A stretch of 64,000 nucleotides of DNA from Microbacterium oxydans (lineage in GTDB: Bacteria > Actinomycetota > Actinomycetes > Actinomycetales > Microbacteriaceae), in assembly GCF_000956405.1 (NCBI RefSeq), contig NZ_JYIV01000027.1, positions 186,001 through 250,000 of the forward strand, in the 5' to 3' direction. The stretch's first letter is position 1, and every line of letters starts with the position of its first letter. Shown here piece after piece: positions 998 through 23,951 of the stretch. The notes below the pieces were generated by a model. It saw only the letters and a program-made list of their open reading frames with translations, did not search any database and was not told the origin of the DNA. The position numbers and the translations under genes were made by a program.

Positions 998-1294
998 ATG
1001 ACCGACACCACTCCCGATCCGGAGACCACGGACGAGTCCTCCCCCGAATCGCAGACCCCCACGCCCACGCCGTCGTCGGACACGAGCGAGGGCGAGGTCA
1101 CGACACCCGCCGAGGCGGAATCGCCCGAGGACGCGGACCCGAGCGAGGTGCCGAGCACCGAGGAGCTCGAAGAGCCCAGCACCGAGAAGGCCCCGGGTGA
1201 AGAGCCCAAGGCTCCGAAGCGCGAGGAGCCCGAGCCCGACCACGAAGCGGTCGGCATCGGCGTGATCGACACGGAAGAGCCCCCGTCCGACTGA
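998..1294 (+). CDS. small acidic, disordered protein of unknown function
   Basis: A 98-residue protein starting at ATG 998 with a purine-rich ribosome site (gaaagggg) about six bases upstream. Nearly the whole chain is Glu, Asp, Pro, Ser and Thr, with a short basic patch (KAPKREEPEP) and a less biased tail, HEAVGIGVIDTEE. It has no signal peptide, membrane segment or known domain, and should be unstructured and strongly acidic. A longer frame opens upstream at 497 but overlaps sdaA on the other strand, so the short start is preferred. Function not recognised. Confidence that it is a real gene rests on the start context and codon bias. Confidence 0.6.
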   Translation: MTDTTPDPETTDESSPESQTPTPTPSSDTSEGEVTTPAEAESPEDADPSEVPSTEELEEPSTEKAPGEEPKAPKREEPEPDHEAVGIGVIDTEEPPSD

Positions 1295-1325: not shown

Positions 1326-1386
1326 GCTCCCGTCGCACTTTCTGTCGCTAAATCGTCGATCGAGCGACAGAAAGTGCGACGGGAGC
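1326..1386. repeat. long perfect hairpin, copy 1 of a dispersed intergenic element
   Basis: Two perfect 24-base arms (1326-1349 and 1363-1386) flank a 13-base loop. The outer arm reads GCTCCCGTCGCACTTTCTG. It lies between two convergent genes (acidic protein ending 1294, flavoprotein ending 1403), so it could end transcription from both sides, although it has no strong T-run. The same element recurs at 20816-20876 with one compensated base-pair change. Confidence 0.85.
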
Positions 1387-1402: not shown

Positions 1403-3133
1403 CTACTCGACGAGCTTGCCCTCGGTGTCGACCTCCCGCATGAGCTCAGCGATCTCGGGCGAGATCTCAGGGATCGCCTCGCGCGTCACACCGTCCTTCG
1501 GCGACCACACCAGGTTCACCTGCAGCGTCGGGTCGGTGTCAGGGAAGTCGCTGCGGTTGTGGCATCCGCGGGTCTCCCGACGTTCCAGCGCCGCCTCGAG
1601 GGTGGCGCGCGCGGCGAGCGCCGACGCCTTGAGATCGAAGGCATGCGCGAGATCCTGGAAGCCCGCGATGTCGGGGTGGATCCCGATGTCCTCCATGCGC
1701 CCCTCGATCATGTCGAGGTCGGCGAGCCCCGCGCGCAGCCCCTCCTCCGAGCGCACGACTCCCGCGTACTCGGTCATCAGGTTGCGGATCGCCCGCTGCA
1801 GGGCACGGACGTTCTCACGTCCCTCCGCGGCGAGCAGGTCGTCGATCTCCGCACGCGCCTCGGCGACGGCCGTCGCCGACCGACGCTGCGCATCCAGCCC
1901 GGCCGCATGCTCCATGGCGGCCTGCCCCACGATGCGCCCGTAGACGAGCAGCTCGATGAGCGAGTTGCCCCCGAGCCGGTTGGCACCGTGCAGTCCGCTC
2001 GAGGCCTCGCCGATCGCGTACAGGCCGTCGACGTCGGTCTGGTGGTCTTCCGGCCGCACCCACACACCGCCCATCGAATAGTGTGCGGTAGGCGCGATCT
2101 CGATCGGGTCGGTGGTGATGTCGAGCATCTGCAGCTCCATCATCGTCTGATAGACGCGCGGCAGGCGGGTCATGATGGTCTCGCGCGGCAGGTGCGACAC
2201 GTCGAGCCAGACGCCGCCGTTGTCGGTGCCGCGACCTTCCTGGATCTCGGTGTAGGCCGCGAGCGCGACGCGGTCCCGCGTCGACAGCTCCATCCGCTCG
2301 GGGTCGTACTTCGCCATGAACCGCTCGCCGAGCGCGTTGCGCAGGATGCCGCCCTCGCCGCGAGCCGCCTCGGAGATCAGGGTGCCCGCAGCGCTCTCCG
2401 GCTCGATGATGCCGGACGGGTGGAACTGCACGAGCTCGGGGTCGCGCAGACGGGCTCCCGCGTCCACCGCCAGCCGGAAGGAGTCGCCCGTGTTCTCGTC
2501 TCGGCGGGAGGAGGTGCGGCGCCAGATGCGGTTGTGTCCGCCCGCGGCGAGGATCACGGCATCCGCGTGGATGAGGTAGCGAGTGCCGTCGGCCTGGTCG
2601 AAGCCGTAGGCCCCGAACACCACGTTGTCGCGCACCAGGAGGCGGGTGATGTAGACGTGGTCGAGGATCGGCACGTCGAGCTGCTCGGCCTTCCGCACGA
2701 GGGTGCGCTGGATCTCGAGTCCCGTGTAGTCGCCGGCGAACGCCGTGCGGCGGAAGGTGTGCGCACCGAAGAACCGCTGCGAGATGCGGCCGTCGTCTTC
2801 ACGGGCGAAGTCCATGCCCCAGCGCTCGAGATCGCGGATGCCCCGCTCGGCGCCCTGGGTGACGATCTCGACCGTGTGGGGATTCGCGAGGAGGTAGCTC
2901 TCCTTGATGGTGTCTGCCGCGTGCTGCTGCCAGCTGTCCTCTGCGTCCATGGTGCCGAGAGCTGCGTTGATGCCACCGGCGGCGAGTGAGGTGTGCGCAT
3001 CCTGCCGCGGTCGTTTGCCCACCGCGAGCACGTCGACGCCGTGTTCGGCGATCTCGATCGCTGCCCGCAGGCCGGACCCTCCGGTGCCGATGACGAGGAC
3101 GGTGGTGGATATCTGACGTTCGCGCGTAGCCAT
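1403..3133 (-). CDS. FAD-dependent succinate dehydrogenase / fumarate reductase / aspartate oxidase-type flavoprotein
   Basis: A 576-residue soluble flavoprotein. The N-terminus carries the dinucleotide fold GTGGSG. Next comes HTSLAAGGINAALG, where His sits at the position that covalently holds FAD in SdhA/FrdA; L-aspartate oxidase lacks that His. Further on are HPSGI, RGEGGILRN, STRDR (catalytic Arg region), HYSMGG and NRLGGNSLIE, all class signatures. There are no iron-sulfur or membrane-anchor subunits beside it, so it is not an ordinary SDH/FRD complex. No nadA or nadC is present either. It is divergent from a LysR gene that may control it. ATG 3133 is preferred over GTG 3142 because a TACCGT hexamer lies seven bases before it. 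Family is sure; substrate unknown. Confidence 0.85.
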   Translation of the reverse strand: MATRERQISTTVLVIGTGGSGLRAAIEIAEHGVDVLAVGKRPRQDAHTSLAAGGINAALGTMDAEDSWQQHAADTIKESYLLANPHTVEIVTQGAERGIRDLERWGMDFAREDDGRISQRFFGAHTFRRTAFAGDYTGLEIQRTLVRKAEQLDVPILDHVYITRLLVRDNVVFGAYGFDQADGTRYLIHADAVILAAGGHNRIWRRTSSRRDENTGDSFRLAVDAGARLRDPELVQFHPSGIIEPESAAGTLISEAARGEGGILRNALGERFMAKYDPERMELSTRDRVALAAYTEIQEGRGTDNGGVWLDVSHLPRETIMTRLPRVYQTMMELQMLDITTDPIEIAPTAHYSMGGVWVRPEDHQTDVDGLYAIGEASSGLHGANRLGGNSLIELLVYGRIVGQAAMEHAAGLDAQRRSATAVAEARAEIDDLLAAEGRENVRALQRAIRNLMTEYAGVVRSEEGLRAGLADLDMIEGRMEDIGIHPDIAGFQDLAHAFDLKASALAARATLEAALERRETRGCHNRSDFPDTDPTLQVNLVWSPKDGVTREAIPEISPEIAELMREVDTEGKLVE

Positions 3134-3140
3134 GCGGTCC

Positions 3141-3146
3141 ACGGTA
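3141..3146 (-). promoter_or_regulatory. -10 element (TACCGT) for the flavoprotein gene
   Basis: TACCGT on the minus strand, seven bases before ATG 3133. It overlaps the alternative GTG start at 3142, which argues against that start. Confidence 0.4.
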
Positions 3147-18191: not shown

Positions 18192-20798
<2,607 letters not shown>

Positions 20799-20815: not shown

Positions 20816-20876
20816 GCTCCCGTCGCAGTTTCTGTCGTTCTCCCTCCGCGGGAGCGACAGAAACTGCGACGGGAGC
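20816..20876. repeat. long hairpin, copy 2 of the dispersed intergenic element
   Basis: Perfect 22-base arms (20816-20837 and 20855-20876) beginning GCTCCCGTCGCAGTTTCTG. The loop can extend the stem through G-U pairs. Relative to copy 1 at 1326, C in the left arm is G here, and the matching base in the right arm changes with it, so pairing is kept. It also lies between convergent genes (GH78 ending 20798, GH3 ending 20901). Confidence 0.85.
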
Positions 20877-20900: not shown

Positions 20901-23186
20901 TCAGCGCGCGGGTGAGCCCCCCGCGTTCGCTGCGGCGATGAGCTGCTCGATCTGCTCGAAGTCGACGGGAAGGCCCGGGAAACCGGCCAGGCGACCGATC
21001 GGGAACGACGCCATCATCTTCTGCATCGCCTCGTCGTTCGGCATCATCGACGCCCCTGCCGCATCGCCGCCGGCTCCGCCGAGAAGACCACCGAGAGCCT
21101 GCTGCACGATCGGACCGGCGACCGGGTGCGACATCAGGTCTCCGATGGAGGAGTTCATGGTCAGCTCCTGGTGCACCACGTCTCCGGCGATGTCGACGGC
21201 CGCGGTGGAGCGGATGTCACGGCTGGAGGCGGCCACGTCGACGGTGTACTCGCCGCCCTCCACCACCCAGCGGTCGACGCGGACATCCCAGTAGGCGAGG
21301 TCCTCGCGCCGCACGACCAGCTCGACCGTGCGGGTCTCCCCTGCGGCGAGCGCGACGGAGGAGAAGGCCTTGAGCTCACGGGGTGCGCGCTGCACGATCG
21401 ATGTCACCGGTGCGACGTACACCTGCACGACTTCGCGGCCGTCACGGTCGCCGGAGTTCGTCACGTCGACGCGCACCATGACATCGCCGCCCTCCCCGAC
21501 CTCGGCCGTCGCGGGTGCGTAGTCGAACGTCGTGTACGAGAGACCGTGGCCGAAGGGGAAGGTCACGTCGAGACCCTTCGCGTCGTACCAGCGGTAGCCC
21601 ACCAACAGGCCCTCCCCGTAGCGGACATGTCCGAACTCGCCGGGGAAATTGCCGAACGAGGGGTTGTCCTCGAGCCGCACCGGCACGGTCTCGGTGAGCT
21701 TGCCCGACGGGTTCACCGCTCCGTAGAGCACGTCAGCCACAGCGCTGCCGCCCGCCTGGCCGAGCAGCCAGCTCTCGACGATCACGGGCACACGGTCAGC
21801 GAAGGGCAGCGCGACCACGCCGCCGTTCGACAGCACCACCACGACACGAGGGTTCACCTCGAGCACGGCATCGAGCACCGCGAGCTGCTCGGCGGGCAGA
21901 TCGATGTGGTCGCGGTCGAAGCCCTCCGACTCCTCTGCAGCCGGGAGCCCGAGGAAGAGCACGGCCACGTCGGCCGCCGTCGCGATGTCGACGGCTTCTG
22001 CCCGGAGGTCTTCCGCCGAGCGTCCGGACGCAGCGACGGCGCCGCCTTCGACCGCGAAGCCCGCAGCGTGGGTGATGTGCTCGCCGCCGATGGCGCGCAG
22101 TGCGTCGAGGGCCTTGTCGACGCGCGTGGGGTTGATCAGTGAAGACCCCGCCCCCTGGAAGCGCGGCTCGGTGGCGAACGCACCGATCACGGCGACCTTC
22201 TGATCGTCGGCGAGCGGCAGCAGCGCACCGTCGTTCTTCAGGAGCACGATGGACCGACCGGCGGCCTCCCTGGCCAGCGCGTGGTGCGCGTCGACGTCGA
22301 GCGGGCCGGACACGGCAGGACGCTCACCGGCCTTGCGCACGAGGTCGATCGCACGACCGGCTGCGGTGTCGAGCACGCTCTCGGCGAGCTCACCTGCCCG
22401 CACGGCTGCGACGAGCTGCGCATCCGTCCTCCCACCGGAGGAGGGCATCTCCAGGTCGAGTCCTGCGGCGACGCCGGTGACACGATCGTTCACGGCCCCC
22501 CAGTCCGAGACGACGAGACCGTCGAAGCCCCAGTCATCGCGGAGGACGCTGGTGAGCAGCCAGGGGTCCTCGGAGGTCCAGACGCCGTTGAGCTTGTTGT
22601 AGGAGCACATGACGGTCCAGGGGGAGGCGTCCTTCACGACGCGCTCGAATCCGCGCAGGTAGATCTCCCGCAGCGGACGCGGGTCCACGTCCGAGCTCGC
22701 GCGCATACGGTCGAACTCCTGATTGTTCGCGGCGAAATGCTTGAGCGAAGTGCCGACGCCCTTCGACTGGATGCCCCGGACGGAGGCGGCTCCGAGCACG
22801 CCCGAGACGATCGGATCTTCCGAGAAGTACTCGAAGTTGCGGCCGCACAGGGGTGAGCGCTTGATGTTGATGCCGGGCCCGAGCACGACCGCGACGTCCT
22901 CGATCGCGGCTTCCACGCCGATGGCGGCGCCCACGCGCTCGATGAGGTCCGGATCCCACGATGAGCCGATGCCGACGGCGGGCGGGAAGCACGTGGCGGG
23001 GACGCTGGCCGCGAGCCCGAGGTGATCGGTGCTGCCCGACTGCTTGCGCAGTCCATGCGGCCCGTCGGTCATCATCACCGAGGGGATGCCCACGCGGTCG
23101 ATCGCCTTCGTCGTCCAGAAGTCCGCACCACTGGTGAGCGAAGCCTTCTCCTCGAGGGTCAGGTCGGAAGCCGAGTTCTCGGTCAT
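20901..23186 (-). CDS. beta-glucosidase, glycoside hydrolase family 3
   Basis: A 761-residue GH3 enzyme, cytosolic (no signal peptide). N-terminal TIM-barrel domain with MTDGPHGLR, SPLCGRNFEYFSEDP, KHFAANNQE (substrate-binding Lys-His) and the nucleophile D228 in LVVSDWGAV. Next is the alpha/beta sandwich domain, then a fibronectin III-like domain around residues 560-680 (GDRDGREVVQVYV). The last 90 residues are an extra Met/Gly/Ala-rich tail beyond the usual end of the FnIII domain, function unknown. It would hydrolyse imported beta-glucosides or related oligosaccharides. Divergent from the TetR gene, which may regulate it. Confidence 0.94.
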   Translation of the reverse strand: MTENSASDLTLEEKASLTSGADFWTTKAIDRVGIPSVMMTDGPHGLRKQSGSTDHLGLAASVPATCFPPAVGIGSSWDPDLIERVGAAIGVEAAIEDVAVVLGPGINIKRSPLCGRNFEYFSEDPIVSGVLGAASVRGIQSKGVGTSLKHFAANNQEFDRMRASSDVDPRPLREIYLRGFERVVKDASPWTVMCSYNKLNGVWTSEDPWLLTSVLRDDWGFDGLVVSDWGAVNDRVTGVAAGLDLEMPSSGGRTDAQLVAAVRAGELAESVLDTAAGRAIDLVRKAGERPAVSGPLDVDAHHALAREAAGRSIVLLKNDGALLPLADDQKVAVIGAFATEPRFQGAGSSLINPTRVDKALDALRAIGGEHITHAAGFAVEGGAVAASGRSAEDLRAEAVDIATAADVAVLFLGLPAAEESEGFDRDHIDLPAEQLAVLDAVLEVNPRVVVVLSNGGVVALPFADRVPVIVESWLLGQAGGSAVADVLYGAVNPSGKLTETVPVRLEDNPSFGNFPGEFGHVRYGEGLLVGYRWYDAKGLDVTFPFGHGLSYTTFDYAPATAEVGEGGDVMVRVDVTNSGDRDGREVVQVYVAPVTSIVQRAPRELKAFSSVALAAGETRTVELVVRREDLAYWDVRVDRWVVEGGEYTVDVAASSRDIRSTAAVDIAGDVVHQELTMNSSIGDLMSHPVAGPIVQQALGGLLGGAGGDAAGASMMPNDEAMQKMMASFPIGRLAGFPGLPVDFEQIEQLIAAANAGGSPAR

Positions 23187-23867: not shown

Positions 23868-23951
23868 CGTCGAGACCCACCGCCATCGCCGAGACCCATC
23901 GCGGGAAGCGTCACCTGCGATGGGTCTCGGCGGGGAACGTGGGTCTCGACG
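23868..23951. repeat. nested double hairpin between convergent genes
   Basis: Outer arms CGTCGAGACCCAC (23868-23880) and its perfect complement (23939-23951). Inner arms CGCCGAGACCCATCGC (23887-23902) and its complement (23917-23932), loop 14 bases. The octamer GAGACCCA thus occurs four times in alternating orientation. It sits between the tetR stop (23865) and the minus-strand permease stop (23956), consistent with a bidirectional terminator or a dispersed repeat. Confidence 0.85.

Follow-up and report, generated by a model that had tools for sequence, protein, structure and literature searches.

Dispersed palindromes of Microbacterium oxydans resemble those bounding a putative Vsr/DUF559-type nuclease gene and may belong to a REPtron-like selfish system

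The window, i.e. the whole 64,000-nt stretch of Microbacterium oxydans DNA analysed here (G000:C27:186001-250000; the assembly is 94.5% complete), carries two copies of a long hairpin. Copy 1 (1326-1386) consists of a left arm (1326-1347; GCTCCCGTCGCACTTTCTGTCG), a 17-nt loop (1348-1364) whose outermost two bases on each side pair and whose centre is unlike that of other copies, and a right arm (1365-1386; CGACAGAAAGTGCGACGGGAGC) that is the perfect reverse complement of the left one. It lies 31 nt after the end of a 98-aa open reading frame with no Pfam match (998-1294, forward strand) and 16 nt before the 3' end of a gene for a FAD flavoprotein of the fumarate reductase/succinate dehydrogenase type (1403-3142, reverse strand). 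Copy 2 (20816-20876; left arm 20816-20837, 17-nt loop 20838-20854, right arm 20855-20876, CGACAGAAACTGCGACGGGAGC) starts 17 nt after an alpha-L-rhamnosidase gene (18192-20798, forward strand) and is followed after 24 nt by the 3' end of a GH3 glycosidase gene (20901-23186, reverse strand). An earlier reading of the window made from its letters alone (hereafter the sequence-only reading) had described two hairpins sharing an arm with one compensated base pair in otherwise unrelated surroundings, and we confirmed both points: the arms differ only at position 13, where a C-G pair in copy 1 is a G-C pair in copy 2, changed on both sides so that both hairpins are perfect, and inspection by eye revealed no resemblance between the surroundings. 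Arm matches with up to three mismatches were found four times in the window and 0 times in 100 dinucleotide shuffles. Both strands of both copies fold strongly as RNA (z = -9.3 to -11.5; approximately -56 to -59 kcal/mol on either strand), while single arms alone reach only -0.5 to -1.9 kcal/mol, i.e. the fold comes from arm-to-arm pairing. Rfam at the gathering score returned six matches in the window, all of them tRNAs and none on the hairpin copies.

The same reading had taken the element to exist in two copies, which turned out to be far too few. A search of the 3.69-Mb genome for the arm found 48 arms, 24 per strand and every one of them paired, and hence 24 hairpins (the arm pattern read backwards, used as a control, gave 0 matches); a covariance model built from these 24 copies raised the number to 26, the two additional copies being more divergent. 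The family is thus a 61-nt palindrome with 22-nt arms and a 17-nt loop. In the alignment of 24 copies, 23 measure 61 nt and the remaining one 60 nt, the arms are nearly invariant, and the loop is free in sequence at a fixed length. Double-sided changes occur at 6 of 25 pairs, a number that 64 of 500 shuffles also reach, while the share of paired cells (93.8%) and the covariation score (0.121) were matched by 0 of 500 shuffles; pairing has been maintained through compensating changes, as the sequence-only reading had it. By the table of a purpose-made gene caller, from which orientations and distances were taken, 25 of the 26 copies are intergenic (one overlaps a doubtful open reading frame) and 23 of the 26 have the 3' end of a gene within 54 nt, which supports the earlier description of a dispersed palindromic element. 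A position between convergent genes, in contrast, holds for both window copies but for only 11 of the 26 sites across the family, where nearness to a 3' end is the general feature; 14 sites are tandem and one is divergent. Since the gene pairs of these loci that are separated by 61 nt or more comprise 77 tandem, 53 divergent and 29 convergent cases, divergent sites appear to be avoided. We saw no target duplication beside the 24 copies when inspecting them by eye, and the arm consensus lacks a GTAG-type tag. For a segment of about 7.4 kb holding one palindrome (L048, 4673-12112), the syntenic locus L123 of G029 offers no equivalent of the same length.

Two copies of this family on another contig, 1.2 kb apart (C28:365227-365287 and 366400-366460), bound a gene for a 325-aa putative nuclease (C28:365368-366345), and its homologue in G041 is likewise flanked by palindromes. 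A search of the genus with the M. oxydans protein gave a top tier of 42 matches in 35 genomes above a score gap (264.6 / 200.4 bits), all of which were examined: palindromes were present on both flanks of 29 genes, on one flank of 8 and on neither flank of 5. The 260 control genes, taken from the window and G040, included a single one with palindromes on both flanks, its arms being unlike, and 34 with a palindrome on one flank (Fisher p 3e-29, a test that, like the other flank tests, ignores species kinship). Flank palindromes are 57-63 nt long in 52 of 66 cases, and for 30 of 34 upstream ones the distance from their end to the gene is 50-104 nt. Arm sequence varies between species and matches across both sides of a single nuclease gene, with an upstream/downstream arm identity per locus of 0.81 as opposed to 0.50 when shuffled (shuffle maximum 0.58; 0/2000). 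The match also held within eight both-flanked units at one common home locus, a subset free of the kinship limitation (0.94 vs 0.67; 0/5000). Eleven top-tier units share one home locus and four second-tier units share another, and in both the arms have changed together on the two sides. The home-locus units thus behave largely as resident genes do, with palindromes evolving in concert. For second-tier homologues, 11 of 41 loci had palindromes on both flanks, 19 on one and 11 on none, counts that give no fair rate as 20 of the loci were those ranking next and 21 had been chosen by hand, some for their genome; arm identity in this set was 0.77 vs 0.50 (0/2000).

Likeness between arms also tracks identity between proteins (Mantel r 0.571 with 48 units, 0.584 with 37; 0/5000 each), a test that ignores species kinship as well, and common ancestry of a gene and its flanks at a home locus can alone yield part of this signal. 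Genomes with two top-tier units are exempt from the kinship limitation: four of them (G021, G042, G066 and G075) have two clearly different arm types, in G129 the two units have the outer arm half in common, and G026 and G057 could not be judged.

The protein is likely a nuclease of the Vsr/DUF559 type with a PD-(D/E)XK-like core, as judged from profile matches and conserved residues. In a set of 41 members, Pfam at E 0.05 assigned PF04480 (DUF559) to 39, PF18741 (the MTES_1575 nuclease) to 28 and AbiEi_4 to 4, with no transposase family among the matches. The M. oxydans protein itself scores 20.2 bits against PF04480, just below the curated 20.6, and the G041 homologue lies above it with 25 bits. 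Residues E229, E273, H279 and D286 are invariant in the 41 proteins and D262 is conserved in at least 90%; these five are the predicted catalytic residues. PADLOC returned one weak AbiEi match (E 0.007), the structure search a single weak match to the endonuclease-like 3hrl (E 0.008), and NCBIfam nothing useful for this protein, while a single-sequence structure model had a pLDDT of 33.7, too low for fold assignment.

We then compared the palindromes bounding the nuclease genes with the solo copies dispersed through the same genomes. The full GTATGAGTT palindrome occurs in 5 of 149 genomes, with 17, 17, 8, 3 and 1 copies including flanks, and the three rich genomes (G021, 17; G036, 17; G014, 8) are exactly those with a GTATGAGTT-flanked nuclease gene. 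The loops of the G021 solo copies look related to one another, some being inverted, unlike those of M. oxydans, which suggests a more recent amplification. Elsewhere the correspondence is looser. The CACTTGCGCTGAACGTAC type is found in 4 of 149 genomes (9, 7, 6 and 4 copies), with a unit of exactly this type only in G049; the units examined in G028, G052 and G101 have arms that are related to it yet different, and units of G028, G065 and G137 at the same home locus as the G049 unit have shifted arms. The open nuclease gene of G029 (L226, G029:C1:840421-841374) is flanked on both sides by the GTCGCGATATTCC type, while the solo copies of that genome, among the matches listed, are mostly of the GTCGCACTTTCTGTCG type, with an inner arm unlike the GTCGCGATATTCC flanks. 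We had considered this gene a pseudogene and rejected the idea, as the stop codon is the normal gene end. In G022, G077 and G088 the unit arms and the solo arms, again among the matches listed, agree in their outer half only. Overall, unit and solo arms match exactly in certain genomes and only in part elsewhere. Of the 35 genomes with a top-tier gene, 17 had at least ten model matches, vs 10 of the 114 without such a gene, a comparison that counts both strands, is uncorrected for phylogeny and uses a model favouring its own arm type. Despite model matches, G002, G040, G092, G107 and G127 contain no nuclease homologue at E 0.001.

The unit and the solo copies both differ between related genomes. 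The surroundings of the M. oxydans unit were sought in 18 genomes, and the unit was missing in all 15 that could be read across (G040 and 14 others). At the empty site of the sister species G040, the flanks are 96-98% identical and TTCTGCGTCC is present once, while in M. oxydans it stands on both sides of the insert as a 10-bp direct repeat, directly behind a terminator-like hairpin; the repeat could be microhomology. The insert includes approximately 95 nt ahead of the left palindrome and a few nucleotides past the right one. Seven of the 24 M. oxydans solo copies could be compared with G040, where one is shared, four are absent and two are replaced by an unrelated hairpin; solo insertions lack sharp boundaries. 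In three of the four genomes tested, solo copies are concentrated around the unit, and in one of these strongly so: 6 of 15 lie within 35 kb of it in G036 (p 1e-6), 2 of 15 in G021 (p 0.04), 2 of 24 in M. oxydans (p 0.04) and 0 of 7 in G049. Carriage on plasmids or phages was rejected, as the 61-nt element had no match at E 0.001 in plasmid and phage collections and the protein had weak partial matches only, in four plasmid records and one phage record; viral contigs contained no relative.

Within the genus, 82 of 149 genomes gave covariance-model matches at E 0.01, in a search that applied stricter filters and scored no more than 36 candidates for any genome. In a family sample searched at E 0.001, 28 of 199 genomes matched, two of which belong to Microbacterium; several of the matching genomes each have one characteristic palindrome length. 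The copies that the sequence-only reading had suggested looking for are therefore found both in the genome itself and in the genus. The hairpin is frequently preserved at orthologous positions between genes, with compensated stems and drifted loops, as at the M. oxydans locus L044, where it is retained as eight other distinct sequences; most loci in this retention survey had been fetched for holding an element and form a biased set. A survey of the two window sites through their flanks, independent of the hairpin, took the best matches from 134 and 131 genomes, 30 loci for each site. Among the 29 other loci at site 1, that of copy 1, six have the M. oxydans arm type (L176, L177, L179, L180, L181 and L191; two are compound), four have a 32-nt short form (L182, L184, L186 and L187, from G135, G144, G126 and G128), one has the GTATGAGTT type (L185, G021), one has the GTCGCGAAAGATCC type (L199, G143), six have an unrelated hairpin (L175, L188, L189, L190, L195 and L196), and the remainder have no hairpin that was found or are not comparable. 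The G021 and G143 palindromes at this site are of the type that flanks each genome's own nuclease gene. At site 2, that of copy 2, G040 alone among the loci surveyed has a recognisable relative, L173 (G028) has the CACTTGCGCTGAACGTAC type, and many other loci matched one-sidedly. In the 32-nt short form just the outer stem, GCTCCCGTCGC, is left, closed by a 10-nt loop, and the hairpins of G005, G083 and G088 (L190, L195 and L196) belong to a different family, CTTCGACAGGCTCAGGGACC and variants. Single arms also occur as direct repeats about 31 nt apart (G077:C12:147883-147966, G022:C1:1664180-1664232 and G066:C54:34946-34998), while M. oxydans has the paired form.

We propose, with a probability of roughly 0.6, that the hairpins are solo copies within a selfish system that resembles a REPtron, has two components and is based on a Vsr-like nuclease. 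One component would be the nuclease gene bounded by two palindromes, its product having an AbiEi-like N-terminus in some members and a Vsr/DUF559-type PD-(D/E)XK-like C-terminus; the other would be the dispersed solo palindromes. The proposal builds on what was observed directly, namely dispersal, fixed geometry, compensated pairing, the flanking of the gene, like flanks, the covariation of arms and protein, the empty site, and the turnover of solo palindromes among sister species. Binding, cutting and movement by the nuclease are predictions. The protein would recognise two inverted arms at fixed spacing and nick or cut at the palindrome, possibly when it is extruded as a cruciform or single-stranded during replication; repair would then copy or insert palindromes, spreading them and homogenising the arms within each genome while the loops are left to drift. 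Placement behind genes would reflect selection or a preference for terminator hairpins, and a settled copy may additionally act as a 3' hairpin. Several observations run counter to this scheme: 10 of the 27 genomes with at least ten model matches lack a top-tier gene, five genomes with model matches contain no homologue at E 0.001, the palindrome is absent from one or both flanks in 13 of 42 units, unit and solo arms agree only partly in some genomes, units at shared home loci behave largely as resident genes do, and the edges of solo insertions are unclean. A tentative further step would be to see here a selfish element of a new class: with neither transposase nor recombinase, a PD-(D/E)XK/Vsr-like nuclease would use break repair to spread the palindromes it recognises and to keep them homogeneous, as a homing-like drive on dispersed hairpins whose arm specificity diverges fast between species along with the enzyme. 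We consider the odds to be slightly against this reading. In the open-licence literature we found no paper linking such palindromes to a DUF559/Vsr-like nuclease, which does not establish that none is in print.

The main competing explanation, which we regard as unlikely, is that the palindromes are operators: an AbiEi-like N-terminal domain would bind the inverted 22-nt arms and repress its own gene from the upstream copy, and solo copies would be selected binding sites. AbiEi antitoxins bind inverted repeats within their own promoters. A fixed arm spacing with a free loop suits two half-sites and is explained equally well in this way. The position of the upstream copy (within 50-104 nt of the gene for 30 of 34 top-tier units), the covariation of arm type with the protein and the few AbiEi matches (the PADLOC match at E 0.007, and AbiEi_4 at E 0.05 in 4 of the 41 members) point in the same direction. 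Operators, however, would be poorly placed in a second copy behind the gene or in solo copies at 3' ends (23 of 26 within 54 nt), and the M. oxydans unit is an insertion while solo sites differ among sister species.

A further possibility is that the palindromes act as bidirectional terminators, as the sequence-only reading had also suggested, or stabilise 3' ends; selection would then act on the RNA hairpin, conversion would keep the copies alike, and the link to the nuclease would be secondary. The strong fold of both strands (approximately -56 to -59 kcal/mol) close to gene ends fits such a role, which the copies may have, and the sister genome G040 has an unrelated hairpin at window site 1 and at L057:16106. 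Intrinsic terminators are likewise strong hairpins just 3' of genes, but at least five T in the eight bases behind the stem occur at only 1 of 52 strand-ends of the 26 copies, and the window copies are absent from the terminator-scan lists. A terminator also needs no conserved arm sequence, fixed loop length or match to the flanks of a nuclease gene, so that genome-specific arms and the nuclease-flank match would be left unexplained, and we consider this account improbable. A purely vertical terminator as the sole explanation, which the compensated orthologous stems had favoured, was dropped given the unit flanks, the arm likeness and the Mantel covariation.

Miniature elements (MITEs) derived from a classical insertion sequence whose terminal inverted repeats are 22 nt long would account for the inverted ends and for the 10-bp direct repeat around the unit insertion, but this is very improbable, as the 24 aligned copies have no common interior (loop), the unit ends are whole palindromes instead of single inverted repeats, and the gene matches no transposase family in Pfam. 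REP or REPIN sequences mobilised by a RAYT (a Y1 HUH transposase) follow a similar logic of dispersed 3'-end palindromes, a repeat-flanked gene and covariation, yet we give them almost no weight here since PF01797 is absent from the M. oxydans genome (in its 94.5% complete assembly) and present in 1 of 149 genus genomes vs 5 of 14 control genomes, and the arms do not fold alone. The sole match to a Y1 transposase in the 149 genus genomes lies in G041 (L143, G041:C15:20980-21342), a genome whose palindromes are 62 nt long, not 61.

The preferred REPtron-like system would therefore work like a REPtron without being a REP/RAYT system, because there is no RAYT and the arms do not fold by themselves; the REP membership suggested earlier is not supported for the same reasons, although dispersed, mostly extragenic palindromes and a repeat-flanked gene, here a nuclease gene, are present. 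According to the available parts of PMC8266576 and PMC3733652, REP/REPIN-RAYT systems share with the present one short palindromes lying mostly behind genes, a repeat-bounded gene whose presence goes with repeat abundance and which is often resident-like, and the co-evolution of repeat and protein. They differ, in the same parts, in having a Y1 HUH enzyme instead of a Vsr/DUF559-type nuclease and tagged REPs of 20-50 nt instead of one 61-nt palindrome with a 17-nt loop, and the available text of PMC8266576 reports no evidence of tnpAREP mobility, in contrast to the unit insertion seen here. CGTC-tagged REPs, as far as described in the accessible portion of PMC3733652, combine stems of 8-9 bp and loops of 4-5 nt with an unpaired tag and have been reported from five phyla, Actinobacteria not among them; they resemble our family in being dispersed palindromes without a RAYT, but the stems here are at least 22 bp long and a dedicated gene was found. 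That portion leaves open what moves RAYT-less palindromic repeats. The MTES_1575 domain has been described in giant HEPN fusion proteins proposed to act in defence; the REase_MTES_1575/DUF559/Vsr account (PMC3710099, in the part available) shares the C-terminal nuclease domain and does not mention palindromic repeats there.

The genus thus offers a natural series of enzymes and palindromes, with apparently different specificities, two per genome in some cases, palindromes without an enzyme, and an empty site, which makes protein-DNA co-evolution and a possible non-transposase mobility directly testable and might provide nucleases with readable and diverse recognition sequences. The window also contains a second, unrelated long palindrome (23868-23951; CGTCGAGACCCACC.../...GGGTCTCGACG), which the CGAGACCCACC palindrome of the G117 locus L150 resembles.
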